This document shows, one piece after another, positions 1 through 10,667 of a DNA stretch of 64,000 nucleotides (its first letter is position 1; each line of letters opens with the position of its first letter). Location: NCBI RefSeq assembly GCF_030705305.1, contig NZ_JAUZEE010000003.1, positions 496,001 to 560,000 of the forward strand, given 5' to 3'. The position numbers and the translations under genes are program-made. The notes beneath the pieces are model-generated. The model searched no databases, was not told the origin of the DNA, and saw only the letters and a list, made by a program, of their open reading frames with translations. The stretch comes from Leptothrix discophora (GTDB lineage: Bacteria; Pseudomonadota; Gammaproteobacteria; Burkholderiales; Burkholderiaceae_C).

Positions 1-1
1 C

Positions 2-1147
2 GAATACGCCCGCAGCCGCAACCACCTCGACGGCGCCGTGACCGGCCTGTCGCCCTACCTGACCCATGGCCTCGTCAGCCTGGCGGAGGTGCTGCGCGGC
101 GCCGCCGCCCGCCACCCGATGAAGGTCGGCGACAAGTTCGTCTTCGAGCTGGGCTGGCGGGCCTATTTCCGCCACGTCTGGGCCCACCGGGGCGACGCCA
201 TCCTGCGCTCGCTGCACGACGGCCCGCTGCCGGACGCCGCCTACCGCACCGGGTTGCCGGCCGACCTGCGCGAGGGCCGCACCGGCATCCCGGCGATCGA
301 CCAGGCGGTGCACACGCTCTATGCCAGCGGCACGCTGCACAACCATGCCCGCATGTGGCTGGCGAGTTACGCGGTCCACGTGCGCAAGACGCACTGGCGG
401 GTCGCCGCCGACTGGCTCTACGGCCACCTGCTGGACGGTGACCTGGCCAGCAACCACCTGAGCTGGCAATGGGTCGCCGGCACCGGCAGCCAGAAGCCCT
501 ACCTGTTCAACGCCGAGAACGTCGAGCGCCACGCGCCGCGCGACTGGCACAGCCCCGGCAGCGTGATCGACGCCGGCTACGACGCCCTGGAGGCGCTGGC
601 GAAGTCGCCGGGGCCGGTCGATCCGCCCGAGGCCGATCGCCCTGGCGTGATCGAGCCGGCGCTGTTCGATGCCCCGCCGGCCGGCCATGCCGTCAAGGCC
701 CCGGCCGCCGCCGACGTGCGCGGCAAGGAGGTCTGGCTGGTCCACCCGTGGAGCCTGGGCGAACTGCCCGACGACCTGCCGCCGCAGACCCTGGTGGTGG
801 GCCTCTGGCTGGCCGACTTCCACCGCGCCCGGCCCTGGAACGCACGTCGCTGGGACTTCGTCGCCACCCGCCTGGCCGCGCTGACGCCGCTGCGCTGGCA
901 CGGCGACGCCGAGGCGGTCGGCAAGGCCCTGGCCGGCGCGAAGCGGGTGCGCAGCATCGCCGAGCCGCACCTCGAACCCTGGCTGTCACGCTGGGCGCAG
1001 TGCCGCCCGGCGCCGGCGCTGTTCCCGGAAGTCCCGACCCGCTGCGACTCCTTCTCGCAGTGGTGGAGCCGCACCACCGCCGGCCTGGGCAGCGTCGCGA
1101 CGCTGCTGGCGCATGCGGACCGGGCGGACGAGGACGGGCGGTACTGA
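2..1147 (+). CDS. Photolyase/cryptochrome-related FAD-binding protein, 5' end outside window
   Basis: The reading frame is open from base 2, so the start codon lies upstream of the window; 381 codons are visible. Residues 1-200 match the helical FAD-binding domain of the photolyase/cryptochrome family: a T-G-L-S-P-Y-L-T-H-G motif, then W-R-A-Y-F-R, H-N-H-A-R-M-W and the L-A-S-N-H-L-S-W-Q-W-V-A-G-T motif that contacts FAD. The family repairs UV-induced pyrimidine dimers or senses blue light. Residues about 210-380 form a further domain with W-N-A-R-R-W-D-F and E-P-H-L-E-P-W patterns reminiscent of the photolyase alpha/beta antenna domain, which is normally N-terminal; this order is discussed as a finding. 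The last 36 codons are duplicated at 3059-3170. Repair activity cannot be inferred from this fragment alone. Confidence 0.8.
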   Translation, partial: EYARSRNHLDGAVTGLSPYLTHGLVSLAEVLRGAAARHPMKVGDKFVFELGWRAYFRHVWAHRGDAILRSLHDGPLPDAAYRTGLPADLREGRTGIPAIDQAVHTLYASGTLHNHARMWLASYAVHVRKTHWRVAADWLYGHLLDGDLASNHLSWQWVAGTGSQKPYLFNAENVERHAPRDWHSPGSVIDAGYDALEALAKSPGPVDPPEADRPGVIEPALFDAPPAGHAVKAPAAADVRGKEVWLVHPWSLGELPDDLPPQTLVVGLWLADFHRARPWNARRWDFVATRLAALTPLRWHGDAEAVGKALAGAKRVRSIAEPHLEPWLSRWAQCRPAPALFPEVPTRCDSFSQWWSRTTAGLGSVATLLAHADRADEDGRY

Positions 1148-1148
1148 A
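1037..1148. repeat. 112-bp direct repeat, copy 1 (3' end of photolyase-related gene)
   Basis: This segment, which encodes the last 36 codons and stop of the upstream gene, recurs at 3059-3170 with two mismatches in 112 bases. Both mismatches fall at third codon positions of glycine codons (GGC/GGT and GGG/GGA), so the encoded peptide is unchanged. The two copies bracket the Sel1-repeat gene. Confidence 0.95.
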
Positions 1149-1184
1149 TGAGCGGTGCGGGTTCCGTCCTGTTTGCCGACTCGA

Positions 1185-2903
1185 TCATTTGCGCGAGCTG
1201 GCAAGGTATTCCTTCGCGCCGTCATGCCCGTGGTTGGCGGCCTTGCGCATCCATGCCAATCCCTCCGCCTGATCCTTATCCACGCCACTGCCCGTGAGCA
1301 GGGCAAGTCCCAGGTGGTATTGACCCTCAGGATAATTCTGTGCGGCCGCCGCCTTGTACCAACCGATCGCAGATTCCGCTGAGCGATTCACACCAATCCC
1401 GTTCGCATAGAAGTTTCCCAGCACGTCTTGAGCGACAGAGAGCCCGGCATCTGCCGCCCTCTTCACCCAACTGAATGCTGCCGTATGGTCTCGACCCGTG
1501 CCGACGCCGTTCAAGGACATCAGGCCCACTTGTAACTGCGCGACCGGAGCGCCCGCGTTGGCGGCTTCTAGAGTCAGCCGATATGCAGCACCCGGATTCT
1601 TCTCGACCCCGACGCCATCGTGGTACATCGCACCGAGTTGCAGTTTCGCGAGGGAATGTCCGGCACGAGCGGCCCGCTCGAAATGCCTCGCAGCCTGCGT
1701 CCGATCCTTGGCCACACCAAACCCGTTGAAGTGCATGGTGCCCAGCAGGTAGTCTGCCGACGGCAAGCCAGCTTCCGCCGCCCTTGAAGCTTGAGCCAAT
1801 GCCTCCCCCAGGTTCTGCGGCGCAAGGTCTCCAGCAAGATAAATCTGCGCCAGTCGCACGCGTGAACGCGCAAGTCCCCGATCCGCAGCCAATCGATACC
1901 AACTCACGGCGACCGCAGGATTTTTGGACAAGGCCAATCCGAATTCATAGGCTACCCCGATGTTGAACATCGCGTAAGGGTGACCTTGCTGGGCAGCCTT
2001 GTTGGCCCAGGCGAGGCCTTCCAACGGCCTCGCAGGCATTCCCCAGCCCTTGATGAGCATCCGCGCCAGTTGGACTTGTGCCTCCGCATCGCCGGCTGCC
2101 GCGGAACGCCTGAGTGCGGCCGGCAAGTCCTTTTTCCGTTCGAACAACGCACGGACCTTTTCGGCGTCTTCCGCATCGGTCTGGTAAGTCTCGCCGTCCG
2201 GATTCAGGATGCCTGCCAATTCTGTATCCAGCGATGGCCCGGGCTTGTAGGTGGTGGCGAGCGACTTCTTGTCGTCCCGAAGTACCGACAAGGTCACCTC
2301 AAGATCACGGATGGTCTCATCGCTCGATGTCGACCGGCCGGCCGACTCAGTCAACTCATTAAGTTTTTCCTGCGCCTTGGCATGTCCCAGCGCGGCAGCC
2401 TGCTTCAGGGAAGAAACCGCCAAGGCACGGTCGCTGGCTACTCCTCGCCCAGACAGTAAAGCAAGTCCCCAGCCATATTGAGCAGAGCGATTGCCTTGTG
2501 CCGCAGCCGCCTTGAAATACTCGACCGCGGCAGCCTCATTCCTCGCGACACCTCGCCCATCGAACAGCATCCAGCCAAGCTCTGTCTGGGCACTAGCATT
2601 GCCTTGCTTCGCAGATTTCTCGAACCAATGGGAGGACTGGGCCGCATCACCGGCCACACCTTCCCCGTTCTTAAACATCCAGCCCAGTTGCTCTTGAGCC
2701 TTGGCATCGCCCTGATCTGCCAAGACCCTGAATGACTTCAAGGCCCCAGCGAAGTCCTTGTTTCGATACGCCCCCCATGCTTCGCCCATGGATTGGGCAC
2801 CCGCGATCGAAGCACCGAACATCACGCAGGCCATGAACAACCATGGCAAGGCTGCCATGAGCCGGGAGATTGCCCAGGACTTCACCTTGGAACGAACGCT
2901 CAT
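1185..2903 (-). CDS. Secreted Sel1-like (TPR-type) repeat protein
   Basis: The product has a hydrophobic signal peptide at about residues 15-36 ending in an A-G-A-Q-S cleavage-like site, so it should be exported to the periplasm. The rest is roughly eleven Sel1-type alpha-helical repeats of about 36 residues, with the recurring L-G-x-x-Y/M-x-x-G-x-G-V pattern. Three repeats come first, then a linker of about 70 residues near 190-265, then about eight more. Sel1 repeats bind other proteins; no catalytic motif is visible. The ATG at 2903 was chosen because a GGGAG Shine-Dalgarno lies 10 bases upstream; the ATG at 2909 is also possible. The gene is visibly richer in A and T than both neighbours and lies inside a unit bordered by a 112-bp direct repeat, which suggests separate acquisition. 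The partner protein is unknown. Confidence 0.85.
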   Translation of the reverse strand: MSVRSKVKSWAISRLMAALPWLFMACVMFGASIAGAQSMGEAWGAYRNKDFAGALKSFRVLADQGDAKAQEQLGWMFKNGEGVAGDAAQSSHWFEKSAKQGNASAQTELGWMLFDGRGVARNEAAAVEYFKAAAAQGNRSAQYGWGLALLSGRGVASDRALAVSSLKQAAALGHAKAQEKLNELTESAGRSTSSDETIRDLEVTLSVLRDDKKSLATTYKPGPSLDTELAGILNPDGETYQTDAEDAEKVRALFERKKDLPAALRRSAAAGDAEAQVQLARMLIKGWGMPARPLEGLAWANKAAQQGHPYAMFNIGVAYEFGLALSKNPAVAVSWYRLAADRGLARSRVRLAQIYLAGDLAPQNLGEALAQASRAAEAGLPSADYLLGTMHFNGFGVAKDRTQAARHFERAARAGHSLAKLQLGAMYHDGVGVEKNPGAAYRLTLEAANAGAPVAQLQVGLMSLNGVGTGRDHTAAFSWVKRAADAGLSVAQDVLGNFYANGIGVNRSAESAIGWYKAAAAQNYPEGQYHLGLALLTGSGVDKDQAEGLAWMRKAANHGHDGAKEYLASSRK

Positions 2904-3035
2904 GATCATGACTCTCCCGCTTGAACGACGTGGCAATGGTTGTCCTATCCACCTCGAATGATGCTGCGCCTTGCCCGTAGACGCGTCCCGCGGCTAGCAC
3001 GCGACAATTTCAATGTATGGGAACGCACAAGCGCA

Positions 3036-3059
3036 TGCACCCCCACATGTGCGGGTGCA
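3036..3059. repeat. 24-bp near-perfect palindrome at the repeat junction
   Basis: The arms TGCACCC and GGGTGCA flank a CACATGTG centre; only one symmetric base pair is mismatched. The palindrome ends on the first base of the second 112-bp repeat and lies in the upstream region of the Sel1-repeat gene. It could be a recombination or operator site, or a cruciform; the sequence alone does not say which. Confidence 0.6.
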
Positions 3060-3170
3060 CCCGCTGCGACTCCTTCTCGCAGTGGTGGAGCCGCACCACC
3101 GCCGGTCTGGGCAGCGTCGCGACGCTGCTGGCGCATGCGGACCGGGCGGACGAGGACGGACGGTACTGAA
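3059..3170. repeat. 112-bp direct repeat, copy 2 (displaced 3' end of photolyase-related gene)
   Basis: This is a copy of 1037-1148, including the former stop codon at 3167-3169, but with no upstream reading frame attached. It directly precedes the 3' end of the convergent DUF4406 gene. The offset between copies is 2022 bp. Before the unit appeared, the photolyase-related gene probably ended here. Confidence 0.95.
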
Positions 3171-3187
3171 CCCCGCTGCCCGGTCGC

Positions 3188-3574
3188 TCAGGCCGCCAGG
3201 CGCGGCAACTCGTCCACATCGAAGTAGACCGGCAGTCCCAGCGCCCGCGCCGTCGCCACGTCCTGGTCCGCGCCGGTCGAGGCACCGGGCAGGCGCAGCA
3301 CCGCGTCGCAGCGTTGCAGCAGGCGCTGCGCGACCGGGTACTGGTAGGCCTTGAACACCGCATCGCCGTGGCTGCGACCGCCGGCGGCGTGGATGATGGG
3401 CAGCGCCAGCCATTCGCCGATCAGCGCGAGGTGGCCGCGCTCCCAGACCGGCAGCGCCAGGGCCTCCAGCCGCGCGAGGTTGGCGGCGATGCGCGCCGGA
3501 TCGCCGTCGGTGCCCGACAGGTAGGGGCCGGCGATCAGGACCAGCAGCGGACGGTTCGGGACGGGGTCGTTCAT
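3188..3574 (-). CDS. DUF4406 / nucleoside deoxyribosyltransferase-like protein
   Basis: A 128-residue protein that starts L-L-V-L-I-A-G-P-Y-L-S-G-T, the I-A-G-P-Y motif typical of DUF4406 and related nucleoside 2-deoxyribosyltransferase-like folds. It also has the later D-A-V-L-R-L-P-G-x-S-x-G-A-D-x-D-V-A-x-A pattern, followed by G-L-P-V-Y-F-D. These motifs suggest binding of a nucleotide or sugar-phosphate ligand, but the reaction is not established for this family. The ATG at 3574 was chosen because upstream codons show no conserved sequence. It is divergent from the DeoR-type gene at 3744 and shares its 169-bp control region, so it may belong to the same regulon. Confidence 0.75.
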   Translation of the reverse strand: MNDPVPNRPLLVLIAGPYLSGTDGDPARIAANLARLEALALPVWERGHLALIGEWLALPIIHAAGGRSHGDAVFKAYQYPVAQRLLQRCDAVLRLPGASTGADQDVATARALGLPVYFDVDELPRLAA

Positions 3575-3629
3575 GGGGCAAGGCTCCGGGGTTGGACGGG
3601 TGGACAGACCGGGCGCACGCACACGACTA

Positions 3630-3690
3630 TTCGTGCGGCTTCGTATCATTTCGTGCGATTCCGTGCAGCGTCGTGCAATGTCGCCCAACC
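3630..3690. promoter_or_regulatory. 10-bp-phased TCGTGC repeat array (candidate DeoR operator)
   Basis: Starting at 3631, six consecutive 10-bp units begin TCGTGC, TCGTAT, TCGTGC, CCGTGC, TCGTGC and TCGCCC. The exact 10-bp spacing places each TCG on nearly the same helix face. Several DeoR-family regulators are known to bind tandem TTCG-containing direct repeats, so autoregulation by the adjacent DeoR-type protein is a reasonable inference. Confidence 0.6.
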
Positions 3691-3743
3691 CTGCACCACC
3701 GTCAACCCATGCCGGAGCCGGCCGGCCTTGCCATCGACACACC

Positions 3744-4502
3744 ATGCTGACCACGCAACGCAAGAAGCTCATCCTGGAACGCCTGGCCCGCGACGGTCAG
3801 GTCGTGGCCAAGGCGCTGGCCGCCGAACTCGGCACCTCCGAGGACACGATCCGGCGCGACCTGCGCGAGCTGGCCCAGGCCGGCCAGCTGCAGCGGGTGC
3901 ATGGCGGCGCGCTGCCGGCCTCGGCCGCCGTCGGCGACCTGCGGGTGCGCGAGTCGCTGTCGACCGACGACAAGGTCGCGCTGGGCCGCCACGGCGCCGG
4001 GCTGATCCTGCCGGGCCAGTGCGTGATCCTGGACGGTGGCACCACCGCGCTGCAGGTGGCCCGCCATCTGCCGCCGGGCCTGCGCGCGACGCTGGTGACG
4101 CACAGCCCGACGGTGGCGGTGGCGGCCGCCGCCCACCCGGGCGTCGAGATCCTGATGCTGGGCGGGCGGCTGTTCCGCCATTCGATGGTGGCGGTCGGCG
4201 CGATGCTGGCCGACGCCGCCTCGAAGATCCGCGCCGACCTCTACCTGATGGGCGTCACCGGCGTCCACCCCGACGCCGGCCTGAGCACCGGCGACGCCGA
4301 GGAAGCGGCCGTCAAGCGCCTGCTGCATGGCCGGGCGGCCGAGACGGTCGTGCTGGCCTCCCGCGAGAAGCTGATGGCGGCCTCGCCCTACGTCGTCACC
4401 GGCCTGGCCGAGGTGTCGCGGGTGGTGGTGCCGGCCGCCACGCCGGATCGAACGCTCCAGGCGTTGCGGGACGGTGGCGCGACGGTGGAGCGGCTGGACT
4501 GA
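3744..4502 (+). CDS. DeoR-family transcriptional regulator
   Basis: A 252-residue protein with the DeoR layout. An N-terminal winged helix-turn-helix occupies residues 1-57 and ends in the characteristic R-V-H-G-G-A. It is followed by a sugar-phosphate-isomerase-like sensor domain with D-G-G-T-T at about 97-101 and S-R-E-K-L near residue 205. Members usually repress sugar or nucleoside catabolic genes and are released by a phosphorylated sugar. The ATG at 3744 gives the canonical M-L-T-T-Q-R-K-K-L-I-L-E start; ATG 3678 would add 22 uncharacteristic residues and lies inside the operator-like array. The only adjacent candidate target is the divergent DUF4406 gene. The effector cannot be read from sequence. 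Confidence 0.92.
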   Translation: MLTTQRKKLILERLARDGQVVAKALAAELGTSEDTIRRDLRELAQAGQLQRVHGGALPASAAVGDLRVRESLSTDDKVALGRHGAGLILPGQCVILDGGTTALQVARHLPPGLRATLVTHSPTVAVAAAAHPGVEILMLGGRLFRHSMVAVGAMLADAASKIRADLYLMGVTGVHPDAGLSTGDAEEAAVKRLLHGRAAETVVLASREKLMAASPYVVTGLAEVSRVVVPAATPDRTLQALRDGGATVERLD

Positions 4503-4510
4503 CGCGGCAC

Positions 4511-4592
4511 GGCCGGGGTCATCCGTTGGGCCCGGCCATTCCGGCCGGTGTCATCCGTTCGGCCCGGCCATTCCGGCCGGGGTGGGCGGCCC
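4511..4592. repeat. 32-bp tandem repeat with GC-rich stem-loops
   Basis: Two complete 32-bp units (4511-4542 and 4543-4574) differ at two positions and are followed by a partial third. Each junction can form a hairpin, for example CCCGGCC/GGCCGGG around ATTCC at 4563-4581. The array covers the gap between two convergent genes and encodes the last residues of the diguanylate cyclase (P-A-G-M-A-G-P-N-G). It may act as a bidirectional terminator without a T-tract. Confidence 0.8.
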
Positions 4593-5687
4593 ATGCGCCC
4601 AGACCTGCATGGCGTCGAACAGCGTGACGCGGTTGCGGCCCATCGCCTTGGCCTGGTACATCGCGCGGTCGGCGCGTTGCTGGATCTCGAGGATGGACTC
4701 GTCGGCCTCGCGCCCGATCGACACGCCGATGCTGGCGGTGACGCGCAGCGCGCGGCCGGCGATGGGCGTCGGCATGGCCTCGACGGCGGCGCGCAGCTTC
4801 TCGGCCAGCACCAGCGCCTGGCCCGCGTCGGTGTGCGGCAGCAGCACCGAGAACTCCTCGCCGCCGATCCGGCCGACGAGGTCGCTGCGCCGCACCGTCG
4901 CGGTGATGCGTTCGGCCACCGCCCTCAGGACCGCATCGCCGGCGGCATGGCCGAGGGTGTCGTTGACGGCCTTGAAATGGTCCAGGTCGACGAACAGCAG
5001 CGAACACGGCTGGCCGACCCGGCGCGAGGCCAGGATCAGCCGGTCGCCCTGCTCGTAGTAGGCCCGCGCGTTCAGGGCGCCGGTCAGGGTGTCGTGCTGG
5101 CTCAACTGGCGCAGCCGTTCGATGGCCTCGCGCATGCGCTGGAAATAGGCGATCGAGCGGTCCACGTAGACGTGGAAGAAGAAGCCCAGGAATACCAGCA
5201 CGACGATACCCGTGACGAGCGCGTGCCGAGAATAGGGTTGGGCCAGCCGAGGATTCACCAGCGCGAAACCGAGCACCAGGCTGCTGGTCACCAGCAGGCC
5301 GGCTCGACAACCCAGCAAGATATAGGCGCTGGGTATCGCGGTATAGAACCAGAGCACCCGCAGCTCGTTCCAGGGCACCTGCAGCAGGGCCGACAGAAAC
5401 AGCGCCAGGGTGGCGGCGTAGTGGCACAGCGTGACCGCCAGACGGCGCTGGCAAGCCCCGCGCAGCAACAGCAGCAGCCCGATCGTGACCGGCAGGTAGG
5501 CCAGCAGCGCGGCCAGGTGGCCGGCCGGCAACGGATGCGCATCGAGCAGCGCCGCGCCGACGAACAGCATCGCGAACACGATGCTGCCCAGCATCAGCAC
5601 GATCAGGAAACGGTACTGGAAGGCTGAATACTCTTCGCTTTCGCCGAAGTGGACATCGCCGAAGAGGAATCGCTCCACGGTTGACAA
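4551..5687 (-). CDS. Membrane diguanylate cyclase (GGEEF)
   Basis: About the first 190 of 378 residues contain six or so hydrophobic segments. They are followed by a GGDEF domain with D-x-L-T-G-A-L-N, F-V-D-L-D-H-F-K-A-V-N-D and an intact R-I-G-G-E-E-F signature, so it should make cyclic di-GMP from two GTP. No known sensory domain is recognised in the membrane part. The start is taken as the TTG at 5687 because AGGGAG lies 6 bases before it; there is no ATG in the N-terminal region. The C-terminal tail lies in a 32-bp tandem repeat and is probably variable in length. It is monocistronic and convergent with the DeoR gene. Confidence 0.88.
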   Translation of the reverse strand: MSTVERFLFGDVHFGESEEYSAFQYRFLIVLMLGSIVFAMLFVGAALLDAHPLPAGHLAALLAYLPVTIGLLLLLRGACQRRLAVTLCHYAATLALFLSALLQVPWNELRVLWFYTAIPSAYILLGCRAGLLVTSSLVLGFALVNPRLAQPYSRHALVTGIVVLVFLGFFFHVYVDRSIAYFQRMREAIERLRQLSQHDTLTGALNARAYYEQGDRLILASRRVGQPCSLLFVDLDHFKAVNDTLGHAAGDAVLRAVAERITATVRRSDLVGRIGGEEFSVLLPHTDAGQALVLAEKLRAAVEAMPTPIAGRALRVTASIGVSIGREADESILEIQQRADRAMYQAKAMGRNRVTLFDAMQVWAHGPPTPAGMAGPNG

Positions 5688-5908
5688 GACTGGCTCCCTG
5701 ACCCGCGCGGCCGCACCACGCAAAAATCAGGAGCTTGCCTCAGGAAAATCAGAAAATCCTGATACTCGAGTGAATCGGTGCGAAATTGAATTTCACCGGC
5801 CCGAAGATGAAAAACCTTCAGCTGGAGATTGATTTTTAATAATCTTGAACGCAACCGTTTGCATTTTCAGCGGCGACCCGTTGTAAGCCCGATGAAACCT
5901 TCCCGGCG
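5688..5908. promoter_or_regulatory. AT-rich upstream region of the diguanylate cyclase gene
   Basis: This is one of the least GC-rich stretches of the window. It contains an inverted repeat ATCAGGA (5726-5732) / TCCTGAT (5757-5763), 40-75 bases before the TTG start, and a second short symmetric element near 5850-5862. A promoter reading toward the diguanylate cyclase is likely here, but no convincing -35/-10 pair was found. Confidence 0.4.
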
Positions 5909-8644
5909 TCAACCCGCTGAAATCGGTCGGGCGGTCACGCCGAGGTCACGCCAATCCTGTGGATGGCAGGTGAACAGCAGCACCTGGTGGCGCTGGGCGG
6001 CGTCGTAGATGACCCGCTTCATCTGCGCCAGCCGGAGGGCATCGCTGTGCACCAGCGCGTCGTCGAGGATCAGCAGCGTCGGCCGGCCGGCCTCGCGCAG
6101 CAGGTCGGCGTAGGCGAAGCGGGCGATCAGGCCGAGCTGCTCGCGCGCGCCGAAGCTCAACGCGTCGATCGCGCCGGTCTCGGGCCGGCCGCGCGCGTCC
6201 GGGCGGGTCAGCGCACCGGGCGCCAGGCGGGCGTCGACGCTCATCGTGGCCTGCGGAAACAGCAGGCCGAGGTGGTGCTGCAGATGACGCGTCAGCGGGC
6301 CTTGCAGCCGCGACAGCGTGGCGGCGCGGCGTTCGAGCAGCTCGCGGCACAGCAGGTCCAGCGCGTCGGCGCGGCGCTGCAGCTCGTCGCGCCGGTCGCG
6401 GGTGCGGGTTCGCTCGCCGTCGACCCGCTCGCGCTCCTCGTCCAGCCCCTGCGCACCGGCCTGGGCCAGCTGCGTCTCCAGCACCAGGATGTCCTCGTGG
6501 CGCTGCTGGTGGGCGCGGCGCTGCTGGGCCACGCTGGCCGTCAGCCGCTGCACGTCCTGCTCGACGATGGCCGGATGGGCCTGCGCCAGCGCCTGCCCGG
6601 TCTGCTCGATGCGCAAGGCCAGCGCGGCCAGCTCGGCACCGGCCGCCAGCAGCTGCTCGGCCGCCTGCCGGGCCTGTTCCTGGCGGGCCGGATCGGCCCG
6701 CAGCGCGGCCAGCGCATCGCGTTCATGGCGGGCCTGGACCTCGGCGGTGGTCGCCGCCGCGAGCTGCTGGCCGGCCGTGCCGGCCGCCTGCTGGGCCACC
6801 TGGACGGCGGCATCGGCCTGCTGCTGGCGGGCTTCGGCACGGGCCAGCCCGGCCTTGGGGTCCTGCGCGGCGTCGGGTGTGGCGTCGGGTGCGGCGTCGG
6901 GCACGGCCTCGGGTGCGTTCAGGCCCTCGGCCATTGCCGCCTCCAGCTGGCGCAGCCGCACCTCGTCCTCGGCCTGCGCGCGCCGCAGCGCCTCCAGGCC
7001 CTGCGGCGCGTGCAGCGCCAGGGCCTGCTCGGCCAGCCCGATCTGGCGCTTCAGCTCGGCCTGCAGGGCCAGCCGCTGTTCGGCCGCCGCGAGGTCGGCC
7101 ACGCTGGCGGCCTGGCAGGCCAGCGGCCAGCGCGCCTCGGCATCGGCCAGCTGGCGCGCCAGCACATCGAGGTCCTGCCCACCGGGATGGATGGTCAGGC
7201 GGCCGACGCCGGGGATGTCCAGCGTCGCCGGCCGGACCAGCACCTCGCGGCCTGCACCGCTCAGCGTGCGCGCCTGCCCGGTCTCGTCGTGCAGGGTCAG
7301 CGTGACGCCGGGCAGCAGGTCCAGCGACAGGCCGGTGGCGATCGCGTCGCGGCGGGTGCGCAGCTCGCGCAGACGGGCATCGAGCGCGCGCAGCTGCTGC
7401 AGCGACTCGGGCGTGATCGCGGCCTCGGCCGCCTGCACACGCAGCGCCGCCAGCGCCGCCGCGGCCGCCTCGGCCTGGGTCAGCGCCGCGCGCTGGCGGG
7501 CCAGCGCCTCGCCCAGCTGGCGATGCTGCAGGCGACGCTCGGCGAGGCTGGCCGCCGCGCGCCAGCGGGCGCAGTCGGCGGCGGCCTGGCGGGCCTGGGC
7601 CTGGGCGGCGTCGAGCCGGTCACGGGCCTGCGCGGCGGCGGACGTGGCGGCCTGCAACGCGGCCTGGGCGCGGGCCCATTCGGCGTCGCGCCGGGCCAGG
7701 TCCTCGGCCTGCTGCTGGCCGGCCTGGACCTGGCGCTGCAGCAGGCCGACCTGGGCCTGCAGCTGGGCATGGCGCTGCTGGTCCTGCACCAGCTGGCGCT
7801 GGCTGTCCTGCAGGGCGACCTGCCGCTCGCGCGCCAGCGCCAGCTCGCGTTCGAGCGCCTGCCAGGGCTGGTCGCGCGCGTCGGCCGCATGGGCGCGGCG
7901 CAGCGCGTCGAGCCGGTCGACCTGCTGGCGGTAGGTCCCGATGAGCGCATCGAGCGCCTCGCACTGGGCGGCCAGCTCGTCGACCCGGGCCTGCGCCTCG
8001 GCCAACGCACCGCGCGCCTTGCCGGTGCCGGTCAGCAGCTCGCCACGACGGGCCTGCAGCCGTTCCAGCAAGGCATCGCCGACGCTGGCGGCCAGGCTGC
8101 CGGACGGGTCGGTGGCGCGGGCCGGGTCGACGTCCTGCCGCCCGTGCAGCGCACCTTGCAGGTGGTTGCGCGCATGGCCGGCCGCTTCGTCGATGTGCTG
8201 GCCGGCGCCCTGTTCGATCCACAGCAGGCCGGGGATGCCCCAGTGCTCGCTCTTGCTCGCGCCCCGGGCCGGGAAGCCGTAGCCCAGCCGTTCGGCCAGC
8301 AGGTCCTCGGCCTCGCTGCCTTCCAGGCTGCGGCCGCCGAGCTGCAGCCGGCAGCGCTTCTTGGCCAGGAAGCGCTTGAACAGCTGGCCCTCCTCGCCGT
8401 CGAGCCGGAAGTCGATCTCGATCTGCGGGGCCGCGCCCGGGTCGTCCCAGGGCCGCAGGTCGTCGACGGCGGTGGTGCCGTGGCGCTCGAAGAAGGCCGC
8501 GCGGATGGCGCGCACCAGCGTGCTCTTGCCGGCCTCGTTGTCGCCGCAGAACAGGTTCAGGCCGGGCTGGATGGCGGTCAGCTCGAAGGGCCGGCGGAAC
8601 TTGCGCACCTGCTCGACGGCCAGGCGGGTGATCTGCAGGCTCAT
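5909..8644 (-). CDS. SbcC/YhaN-like SMC-type ATPase
   Basis: A 911-residue protein with an N-terminal ATPase half carrying Walker A (C-G-D-N-E-A-G-K-S-T, residues 33-42). Long alanine/glutamine-rich coiled coils follow, interrupted by a small globular insert near 450-520. The C-terminal half has an ABC signature-like S-F-G-A-R-E-Q-L-G-L and Walker B (P-T-L-L-I-L-D-D-A-L). This is the Rad50/SbcC architecture of DNA-end processing, but there is no Cys-x-x-Cys zinc hook between the coils, so a YhaN-like assignment fits better than SbcC. The ATG at 8644 overlaps the stop of the phosphoesterase gene by 4 bases (ATGA), so the two are translationally coupled and probably form one nuclease complex. 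A 12-bp tandem repeat lies in the second coiled coil. Confidence 0.88.
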   Translation of the reverse strand: MSLQITRLAVEQVRKFRRPFELTAIQPGLNLFCGDNEAGKSTLVRAIRAAFFERHGTTAVDDLRPWDDPGAAPQIEIDFRLDGEEGQLFKRFLAKKRCRLQLGGRSLEGSEAEDLLAERLGYGFPARGASKSEHWGIPGLLWIEQGAGQHIDEAAGHARNHLQGALHGRQDVDPARATDPSGSLAASVGDALLERLQARRGELLTGTGKARGALAEAQARVDELAAQCEALDALIGTYRQQVDRLDALRRAHAADARDQPWQALERELALARERQVALQDSQRQLVQDQQRHAQLQAQVGLLQRQVQAGQQQAEDLARRDAEWARAQAALQAATSAAAQARDRLDAAQAQARQAAADCARWRAAASLAERRLQHRQLGEALARQRAALTQAEAAAAALAALRVQAAEAAITPESLQQLRALDARLRELRTRRDAIATGLSLDLLPGVTLTLHDETGQARTLSGAGREVLVRPATLDIPGVGRLTIHPGGQDLDVLARQLADAEARWPLACQAASVADLAAAEQRLALQAELKRQIGLAEQALALHAPQGLEALRRAQAEDEVRLRQLEAAMAEGLNAPEAVPDAAPDATPDAAQDPKAGLARAEARQQQADAAVQVAQQAAGTAGQQLAAATTAEVQARHERDALAALRADPARQEQARQAAEQLLAAGAELAALALRIEQTGQALAQAHPAIVEQDVQRLTASVAQQRRAHQQRHEDILVLETQLAQAGAQGLDEERERVDGERTRTRDRRDELQRRADALDLLCRELLERRAATLSRLQGPLTRHLQHHLGLLFPQATMSVDARLAPGALTRPDARGRPETGAIDALSFGAREQLGLIARFAYADLLREAGRPTLLILDDALVHSDALRLAQMKRVIYDAAQRHQVLLFTCHPQDWRDLGVTARPISAG
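6869..6916. repeat. Four tandem 12-bp units inside the YhaN-like gene
   Basis: Four consecutive 12-base units of the pattern GGCGTCGGGTGC encode a repeating Pro-Asp-Ala-(Ala/Thr) stretch between coiled-coil helices. In-frame units mean copy-number change would alter the linker length without breaking the frame. Confidence 0.85.
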
Positions 8645-9768
8645 GCGCCGGCTCCCAGGTCCTGCAGCTCGGTGCTCAGCAGCGCCAGCGCGTCGGCGGC
8701 GGTGCGGGCCTGCTCGGGGCTGTCGCCGTGCGACTGGCGCTCGCGCAGCGCGGCGATCAGCTCGCCGAGGTAGCCGTCGGCCTTCAGCGCGGCGATGTCG
8801 GCATCGGTCGGCTCCAGCCGCAGCCCGGCCAGGTCGACGCCCAGGTGACGGCAGCGCGCCTCGCCGCGGGCGACGGCCTCGCGCAGCCGGGCATGCGCGG
8901 CCAGGTCGACGATGCCCTCGACCCGCAGCGCGATGACCTCGTCGGCGCCCAGCGCGTCGAGCTGCGCCAGCAGGGCGTCGAGGTCGCTGGGCACCGCCAG
9001 CCGGACGTCGAGCGTGCGCCAGCGGTAGCGGCCCACCGCATGGCGGCTGACCTGCGGCAGCGCGCCCGGCGCGGCGATGTCGACCACCAGCGCATGGCCG
9101 GCGTCGTTGTCCTTGTGCCGATCGGGCTCGGGGGTGCCGGCATACCAGGTCCGCTCGTCGATGCGCTTGCAGCCATGCCAGTCGCCCAGCGCGAGGTAGT
9201 CCAGCCGGGCCCGCACCGCGCGGTCTGGCGCGATCGGGTTGGCCGAGTCGATCTCCTCGGCCAGCAGGCCCTGCACGCTGCCGTGGGCCAGGCCGATGCG
9301 CAGCAGGCCGGCGGGGGTCTCGGCGCTGTCGAACCAGGCGCTCAGGTCGGTGTGGGTGTGGCGCTGGGTCAGCGGCGCGGGCAGCAGGGCCAGGCCGATG
9401 TCGGGCAGCAGCAGCGGCTCGGGCGCCAGCGCCAGGTGGACATGGGCCGGCACGGCGCCCAGGCGCTGCGCGCGGGTCCAGACGCTCTCGGCCAGCGCCG
9501 CGTCGTGGTTGCCGGGGATCAGCACCCACGGCCCGGACCAGCCGGCCATCGCGTTGAAGAGCCGCCGCACGGTGCGCTCGGAGACGGTCTGGGCATCGAA
9601 GACGTCACCGGCGACCAGCACCGCGTCGACGGCCTCGCGGGCGGCCAGCGCGGCCAGGCGTTCGACGCAGGCGATGCGGGCTTCGGCCAGCGGCATCGCG
9701 TTCTCGGGCGGCAGGCTGGCGTAGAGACGGCCGATCTGCCAGTCGGCGGTGTGCAGGAAACGGGGCAT
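8641..9768 (-). CDS. SbcD/YhaO-like DNA repair metallophosphoesterase
   Basis: A 375-residue calcineurin-type phosphoesterase. The metal-binding motifs appear in order: H-T-A-D-W-Q-I-G at residues 6-13, A-G-D-V-F-D at 54-58, P-G-N-H-D at 85-89, A-H-G-S and L-G-D-W-H-G. The first motif has Gln where Mre11/SbcD usually have His, a variant that also occurs in YhaO-like proteins. With its coupled ATPase partner it probably cuts DNA ends or hairpins. The ATG at 9768 was chosen because the conserved P-R-F-L-H-T-A-D follows directly. The gene is first in a two-gene operon, divergent from the cytochrome genes across a 146-bp gap that includes a run of CGGCA repeats. Confidence 0.9.
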   Translation of the reverse strand: MPRFLHTADWQIGRLYASLPPENAMPLAEARIACVERLAALAAREAVDAVLVAGDVFDAQTVSERTVRRLFNAMAGWSGPWVLIPGNHDAALAESVWTRAQRLGAVPAHVHLALAPEPLLLPDIGLALLPAPLTQRHTHTDLSAWFDSAETPAGLLRIGLAHGSVQGLLAEEIDSANPIAPDRAVRARLDYLALGDWHGCKRIDERTWYAGTPEPDRHKDNDAGHALVVDIAAPGALPQVSRHAVGRYRWRTLDVRLAVPSDLDALLAQLDALGADEVIALRVEGIVDLAAHARLREAVARGEARCRHLGVDLAGLRLEPTDADIAALKADGYLGELIAALRERQSHGDSPEQARTAADALALLSTELQDLGAGA

Positions 9769-9914
9769 GTCGGGTTCCGGATGGGGCGGCACGGCGGCAC
9801 GGCGGCAGCGGCCGACGAATATATCCGGCCCCTGCGGCACGGCCGGCCCGGCCCCATGCCCACGGCCCCAGGCGCACGGCCCGTCATGGGGCTGCATGGA
9901 AAATCGTCCGCCTG

Positions 9915-10667
9915 ATGCCACCTCACACGCCGCACCTCCCCAACACGAAGCCGCTGCGCGCCTGCCTGGCCGCCGGGCTGCTGTCCGCCACGGCGGTCGT
10001 GCCTGCCGCACAGGCGATGCCCCGGGTTCCCGACAGCACCGCACAGCGCGCGCTGGCCTGCACCGGCTGCCACGGGCCCCAAGGCAAGTCCTCGCCCGAA
10101 GGCTATGTGCCGCGCATCGCCGGCAAACCGGCCGGCTACCTGGCCGCGCAGCTGCGCGCCTTCCGCGACGGCCGTCGTCGCCATGACGGCATGGCGCGCC
10201 TGCTGGAGAACCTCGACGATGCCTTCCTGCGCGAGCTGGCCGGCCATTTCGCCGCTCTGGACGTGCCCTATGCCGCGCCGGTCCCGACGGCCGGGCTGAC
10301 GCTGACGGCGGACGACACGCGCCGCGCCGAGCAGCTGGTGCGCGAGGGCGACCCCGGCCGCCGCCTGCCGGCCTGCGCGGGCTGCCACGGCGCGGCGCTG
10401 ACCGGCATCGCGCCGCAGGTGCCTGGCCTGCTGGGCCTGCCCGGCGGCTACCTGTCGGCCCAGCTGGGCAGCTGGCGGGTCGGCACGCGGCGCGCGGATG
10501 CGCCCGACTGCATGGCCGAGATCGCCCGGCGGCTCGCCCCCGGCGACATCACCGCGCTGTCGCGCTGGCTGGAGCGCCAGCCCGTGCCGCAGCCCGCCTC
10601 GCCCCTGCCGGCCGGCAGTGCCCGCCGCACACCCTGGCCGATGGCCTGCGGGGAGTCGATCCGATGA
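9915..10667 (+). CDS. Dihaem cytochrome c, c4-like
   Basis: A 250-residue protein with an export signal ending about residue 34 (A-A-Q-A) and two covalent haem sites, C-T-G-C-H at 49-53 and C-A-G-C-H at 154-158. Each is followed by the methionine-containing half typical of class I cytochromes c. Two similar domains in tandem is the cytochrome c4 arrangement, so it should carry electrons in the periplasm. The 3' end overlaps the next cytochrome gene by 4 bases (ATGA), so they are co-translated. No dehydrogenase or oxidase gene lies beside them, so the electron donor is unknown. Confidence 0.88.
   Translation: MPPHTPHLPNTKPLRACLAAGLLSATAVVPAAQAMPRVPDSTAQRALACTGCHGPQGKSSPEGYVPRIAGKPAGYLAAQLRAFRDGRRRHDGMARLLENLDDAFLRELAGHFAALDVPYAAPVPTAGLTLTADDTRRAEQLVREGDPGRRLPACAGCHGAALTGIAPQVPGLLGLPGGYLSAQLGSWRVGTRRADAPDCMAEIARRLAPGDITALSRWLERQPVPQPASPLPAGSARRTPWPMACGESIR

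Follow-up and report, generated by a model that had tools for sequence, protein, structure and literature searches.

How a single gene of foreign composition came to lie between two copies of the end of its neighbour is the question raised by a locus of Leptothrix discophora (NCBI RefSeq assembly GCF_030705305.1, contig NZ_JAUZEE010000003.1, positions 496,001 to 560,000 of the forward strand). In the window, i.e. this whole stretch of 64,000 nucleotides (nt), a gene for a Sel1-repeat protein is located downstream of a photolyase-related gene, and the 3' end of the latter occurs a second time on the far side of the Sel1 gene. This arrangement is probably the scar of one horizontal gene acquisition, in which a gene end and the Sel1 gene would have entered together by homologous recombination, the other end being joined illegitimately. 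A known mechanism suffices and no new kind of element is needed, the arrangement itself being unusual within the sampled part of the genome.

A duplicated gene end around a foreign gene

The two copies (1037-1148 and 3059-3170) form a direct repeat of 112 base pairs (bp) at a spacing of 2022, with 110 of 112 bases identical (98%), and comprise the final 36 codons of the photolyase-related gene, its stop codon and one further base. Chance similarity is ruled out by an E-value of 4.9e-50 in a search within the own genome. The copies differ at 1084 (GGC in copy 1, GGT in copy 2) and 1138 (GGG in copy 1, GGA in copy 2). Both codon pairs encode glycine, and the two copies alike translate to TRCDSFSQWWSRTTAGLGSVATLLAHADRADEDGRY, followed by the stop. 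Two random changes would both be silent with a probability of 0.066, which rises to 0.117 if they are transitions and to 0.198 if they are GC-to-AT transitions; this silence is only a hint that both copies may have been coding until recently. A first-pass annotation, made from the sequence alone, had described the repeat, the silence of both differences and the relation of the upstream gene to photolyases; the repeat comparison, the glycine codons and a match to the Pfam family FAD_binding_7 (E-value 3.8e-24) bear it out on all three.

A third full copy, for which the same annotation had suggested a search, was not found in the genome of 4,646,228 bases, where other places match only a short part of the repeat. 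Close direct-repeat pairs (at least 40 bp, at least 85% identity, 0.2-20 kb apart) were surveyed in a 464-kb sample consisting of the window and 20 stretches of the same contig, which covers 10% of the genome (464 of 4646 kb). Seven of the eight pairs detected lie inside one internally repetitive stretch at about 365 kb, which leaves the pair of photolyase ends as the only other one. That it is the lone pair besides this repetitive stretch fits a one-off event, and a general habit of gene-end duplication was not seen in the sampled 10% of the genome.

The unit between the repeats is 1910 bp long, has a guanine-cytosine (GC) content of 0.602 and encodes the Sel1-repeat protein, which matches the Pfam family Sel1 (PF08238) in eight stretches with a score of 226.9 bits against a cut-off of 30.7. 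The Sel1 gene is compositionally foreign: its GC content at third codon positions (GC3) is 0.66, compared to 0.95 for the photolyase-related gene, 0.92 for the adjacent DUF4406-type gene, 0.94 for a DeoR-family regulator gene and 0.90 for a GGDEF gene further downstream. The single lower-GC Sel1 gene described in the first-pass annotation is thus confirmed. It is convergent with the photolyase-related gene, the two stop codons being 37 nt apart. The unit contains 16 further reading frames of 60 or more amino acids, none of which matched a Pfam family; the NCBIfam matches of the Sel1 protein were all far under their cut-offs, and a single PADLOC match at an E-value of 0.0098 was disregarded. 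Judged by eye, the N-terminus resembles a signal peptide; together with the repeat family, this suggests that the protein is probably an exported solenoid scaffold. In the 464-kb sample, 73 of 4621 tiles of unit size have a GC content as low or lower, all of them from two other islands. The larger of these two low-GC islands (358.9-368.1 kb) contains the internally repetitive stretch, which has a 270-bp period (G000:C25:364851-367288).

Relatives of the locus and the resident copy

The locus was compared with the genus set of 13 genomes, including the own genome (G000), in nine of the 12 others, i.e. all except G002, G006 and G012. Window positions 700-1148 match something in all 13 genomes, the matches in G002 and G012 being short and weak, and a second gene end is present only in G000 and in none of the 12 others. 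In the closest relative (G007, 88.5% identity over 1150 bp), the end of the GGDEF gene (window 4594 onward) comes 37 nt after the photolyase stop, and synteny continues to window position 9768. The Sel1, DUF4406-type and DeoR genes are all missing from this locus. The exact empty site predicted was not found: G007 has no Sel1 gene here, and its photolyase stop is followed by the GGDEF end and not directly by the DUF4406 end. As the DUF4406-DeoR pair is also absent, the stretch that varies relative to G007 extends from 1149 to about 4590 and, at about 3.4 kb, is larger than the Sel1 unit. Either at least two events would have hit the spot behind the photolyase-related gene, or G007 may have lost the pair. 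Along the photolyase-related gene, the identity of 112-nt tiles to G007 varies between 0.946 and 0.786 without a clear step and reaches its minimum at the 3' end, the last tile having only 28 nt.

The flanks of the repeats provide evidence on which copy is the newcomer. To the right of copy 2, positions 3180-3205 align with bases shortly after the stop of the gene in G007 with a score of 31. Of 6628 background tiles on either strand, 16 reached this score, as did one of 149 tiles anchored on TCAGGCC, where both counts may include the site itself; none of 500 shuffles did so. The right flank of copy 1 scored 16 against G007, with 32 of 500 shuffles as good, and the bases between the DeoR and GGDEF genes scored 14, with 484 of 500 shuffles as good. 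Positions 3180-3205 form the extreme end of the DUF4406-type gene, the product of which terminates in ELPRLAA, compared to DVPVKV or DVPLKV in three relatives that carry this gene, and the flanks of the gene in these relatives reach only 15-18 against G007. The resemblance of the right flank of copy 2 to that of G007 points to copy 2 as probably the resident end in its native flank, and to copy 1 with the Sel1 gene as probably the incoming part. The earlier idea that one copy arrived with the unit as a replacement 3' end would hence apply to copy 1.

Relatives of the Sel1 gene were searched for in 60 genomes (the own and the 12 of the genus included), 399 genomes of the family and 369 of the class, with the own genome in each count and overlapping samples, and no relative was similar enough to represent another copy of the unit. 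Scans of genome_contigs and viral_contigs, which detect close relatives only, likewise gave no confirmed Sel1 relative. Partial matches of 29-48% among those listed in the 60-genome search were not taken as evidence of descent because Sel1 repeats resemble one another. Among 72,556 plasmids, 648 records matched, all below 60%, the top four with 35% over 91-94%, and the best 12 of 14 matches in 50,697 phage records did not exceed 35.7%. The top full-length matches seen were Aeromonas caviae plasmids of 7.6-7.8 kb (35% over 94%), one of which also encodes a site-specific integrase. By tblastn, the top plasmid match forms one piece with 216 bits; among the chromosome matches seen, the best has 165 bits over residues 295-564 and stems from another program, which precludes a strict comparison. 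The Sel1 gene may ultimately come from a plasmid-borne source, which is a lead and not a result. No photolyase C-terminus was found on plasmids. On one of these plasmids (NZ_CP102317.1, Aeromonas caviae, 7.6 kb), the Sel1 gene is located at 1118-2692 near a CcdA/CcdB pair, with a site-specific integrase encoded elsewhere on the plasmid.

Several points weigh against an acquisition with copy 1 as the incoming end. The flank resemblance covers about 25 bp at one of three flanks tested. Moreover, G007 shares the base of copy 1 at both differing sites, which alone would fit a resident copy 1 and a drifting copy 2. The polarisation of these sites was weighed on G007 alone, as G009 is split, with the copy 2 base at the first site and the copy 1 base at the second, and G011 aligns poorly and has neither base. 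Flank likeness and base states would be compatible if the older bases had been retained in the donor strain. A donor locus, i.e. the gene end beside this Sel1 gene, was not found in the 12 other genomes of the genus or in the genome_contigs, family and class searches. A donor of another species would be unlikely, because the copies differ by only two bases. Finally, microhomology at the junction is unreadable without the donor sequence.

Candidate routes of entry

Pfam detected no recombinase or transposase family in the unit, Sel1 being the sole match above cut-off between the repeats, and the first-pass annotation was right in this respect for the gene and the 16 further reading frames. The genome has 13 matches to the tyrosine integrase family PF00589, 12 of them above the cut-off, the nearest on the contig at 168,680-169,123, about 328 kb off; outside the unit, integrases were searched via this family only, and serine recombinases and transposases were not searched genome-wide. 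Possible attachment sites were looked for without success, with no transfer RNA (tRNA) in window positions 1-10000 and no structured RNA from Rfam in 1-6000. With regard to a transposon, there is no transposase family between the repeats, the borders are a 112-bp direct repeat, and only one border has a stable hairpin. The best reading is that the arrangement shows no sign of a mobile element and would not be a self-mobile unit. The suggestion of a small passenger mobilised in trans is not supported: the repeat has no other full copy in the genome and the palindrome described below no other copy, the nearest PF00589 match is remote, none of the 12 other genomes of the genus has a second gene end, and no close Sel1 relative was found in the collections searched. 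There is very little probability of an integrase-less cassette, in which a single cargo gene would travel with a small piece of a host gene end and be bounded on its other side by a hairpin, integrating and excising at this gene end through the homologous recombination of the cell or through a recombinase encoded elsewhere in the genome.

The hairpin belongs to an imperfect palindrome at the 3058/3059 junction. As single-stranded DNA, positions 3020-3080 have a predicted fold of -15 kcal/mol with a stem that continues into copy 2, and none of 200 shuffles was as good, while positions 1130-1200 at the other border fold no better than their own shuffles. Palindromes of the same grade number 14 in the 464 kb, including the one at the junction, and four of them overlap. 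As a mark of the junction, the palindrome is suggestive only, and its hairpin may have promoted an illegitimate join at 3058/3059. It was rejected as a repeated element, since it occurs at one place in the genome (up to three mismatches) and in none of 398 other genomes of the family (up to two mismatches).

The acquisition would have started from a related strain in which the Sel1 gene lay directly downstream of, and convergent with, the photolyase-related gene. A fragment consisting of the last ~112 bp of this gene and the Sel1 gene would have entered the cell, and its ends would have been joined illegitimately, probably by recircularisation, at the hairpin-forming spot, giving the junction at which the palindrome is seen. 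A single RecA-type crossover within the 112 bp would have inserted this putative circle. Its product would be the duplication seen in the window, with the photolyase-related gene ending in an intact incoming 3' end (copy 1), followed by the Sel1 gene and the resident 3' end (copy 2). Alternatively, a one-ended linear event, known as homology-facilitated illegitimate recombination, could leave a similar product. Two features expected of an acquisition by homology are present: a piece of a resident gene is directly repeated around foreign DNA, and the repeat is a one-off, without a further full copy elsewhere in the genome. The best reading is hence one that had been put forward only as an alternative, recombination with a related strain; it agrees with the absence of the Sel1 gene at this locus in G007, its foreign composition and the probably native flank of copy 2.

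Precedents for these steps are described in three reports. In an Escherichia coli assay of one-ended integration of DNA with one homologous end, a lacZ end, 56 of 60 Lac-minus clones gave a polymerase chain reaction product for a partial duplication of the homologous lacZ end; the duplications, of 109-950 bp in 14 sequenced clones, were ascribed to a single crossover of a truncated circular molecule (PMC3240628). As at the present locus, foreign DNA was placed between direct duplicates of one gene end without a dedicated recombinase, and the 112 bp found here fall at the low end of the reported range; the assay differs in that it used a conjugated plasmid under laboratory selection, whereas the donor molecule is only inferred here (PMC3240628). 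The other four clones were apparently one-ended illegitimate events, three of them without junction homology, and such events are usually accompanied by a deletion and, in most cases, by microhomology of 3-10 bp (PMC3240628). One-ended events are also a proposed origin of the displaced gene ends of Vibrio type VI arrays and Rhs loci (PMC5361080). In species comparisons, where 10-18% of the short variable segments are flanked by repeats, mostly of less than 30 bp, some of these segments have been attributed to such events as well (PMC2884548).

A one-ended event, in which one end is homologous and the other illegitimate, would account for the difference between the two borders (PMC3240628, PMC2884548), but as a rule it removes a similarly sized part of the recipient (PMC3240628), while a duplication without visible loss is found here. 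For this reason, the single crossover is favoured. In the type VI immunity arrays and Rhs loci, new DNA is likewise proposed to enter on a conserved upstream part and to push the old 3' part downstream as an orphan, although whole immunity genes or variable 3' regions are kept there, in contrast to a dead end of only 36 codons in this case (PMC5361080). If the acquisition took place as outlined, the locus would be a clean natural case of a single-gene acquisition whose entry scar is still readable: its two borders are unlike, one gene end is replaced, the resident one is displaced, and a flank hints at which is which. Scars of this type illustrate a way in which lone genes may enter genomes without integrases. 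Occasional precise loss of the unit by homologous recombination between the 112-bp repeats should also be possible and would restore an intact gene.

Other explanations of the duplication start in the recipient. A long staggered break or re-replication may have duplicated the 112 bp upon insertion of DNA that contained no photolyase sequence, as an unusually long target-site duplication. This would require no donor with the same gene end and would likewise leave copy 2 in its native flank, and it would account for the two differing sites, since a drifting dead copy is expected to carry both changes while copy 1 retains the state of G007. We nevertheless regard it as unlikely. Transposon target duplications are far shorter, at about 2-14 bp, and the unit has no match to a transposase family. 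The silence of both changes weakly hints at two recently coding copies, and the right edge of the repeat lies one base past the stop, which is not explained by random breakage but is explained by diverged downstream genes of two strains. It is decidedly improbable that the gene end was first duplicated locally in tandem and that the Sel1 gene was inserted between the copies later: two events would be needed and the Sel1 gene would have had to land exactly between the copies, even though a 32-bp tandem duplication at another gene end (4510-4573) shows that local duplications occur here.

An integrase-type element at a gene 3' end is a further candidate. In E. coli, the e14 prophage brings a new gene 3' end to its site at icd and pushes the previous one aside, and it has its own integrase and many genes. 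The unit, too, would have replaced and displaced a gene 3' end, which is directly repeated at both borders with the gene left intact, but it consists of one cargo gene and contains no integrase. Under this explanation, the 112 bp would be the attachment core and the unit a decayed or trans-mobilised element with only the Sel1 gene. The intact regenerated 3' end and the seemingly displaced resident end are as in such elements, and the best full-length Sel1 matches seen are plasmid-borne, one of the plasmids also encoding a site-specific integrase. Given that core and boundary palindrome are unique, that none of the 12 other genomes of the genus has a second gene end, and that recombinase families are lacking in the unit and PF00589 matches in its vicinity, with serine recombinases not searched, this explanation appears quite improbable. 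That the locus is an artefact of the draft assembly, which comprises 31 contigs, is extremely unlikely, as the two differing sites argue against one stretch used twice, the repeat is only 112 bp long and the estimated contamination is 0.12%.

Neighbouring genes and further observations

Table 1. Features at the left end of the window, with positions counted from its first base
Feature	Position	Strand	Evidence and remarks
Photolyase-related gene, 3' part, open to the stop; 5' part outside the window	1..1147	+	Pfam FAD_binding_7 (PF03441), E 3.8e-24; 88.5% DNA identity with G007
Repeat copy 1, continuing the reading frame of the gene; probable incoming replacement end	1037..1148	+	Repeat comparison; right flank weakly like G007
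Sel1-repeat protein gene, 572 codons, intact	1185..2903	-	Pfam Sel1, E 4.5e-69; GC3 0.66
24-bp palindrome with one mismatched pair, adjoining the start of copy 2; predicted hairpin extends across the junction into copy 2	3036..3059		Sequence and folding
Repeat copy 2, detached 3' end; probably resident	3059..3170	+	Repeat comparison; right flank 3180-3205 resembles G007
DUF4406-type gene	3188..3574	-	No Pfam or NCBIfam family at E 0.001; name from the first-pass annotation and one plasmid annotation; absent at the G007 locus
DeoR-family regulator gene, divergent from the DUF4406-type gene	3744..4502	+	Pfam DeoRC, E 9.9e-33; absent at the G007 locus
32-bp tandem repeat, two copies, 94%	4510..4573		Right border of the 3.4-kb variable stretch; covers the last codons and stop of the GGDEF gene
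GGDEF gene	4551-5678	-	Pfam, E 9.2e-44

The divergent DUF4406-DeoR pair (window 3171-4593) is another unit of patchy occurrence behind the photolyase-related gene. It is missing from the locus in G007 and present elsewhere in G003, G004 and G008, in a neighbourhood that is common to these three genomes and unlike the window locus except for the pair itself and one weak match of 107 bp. The GGDEF protein had no match in the locus stretches of the other eight genus genomes compared. These comparisons suggest an insertion of the pair into the former GGDEF end, by which both genes would have acquired new C-termini.

In another genome of the genus set (G005:C59:1-12000), an array with a 60-bp period lies about 1 kb downstream of the photolyase-related gene, at positions 130-3840. 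It consists of 59 copies of the 28-bp repeat GTGAACTGCCGGGTAGGCAGCTCAGAAA with differing 32-bp spacers and looks like an array of clustered regularly interspaced short palindromic repeats (CRISPR), the repeat of which we take to be I-F-like.

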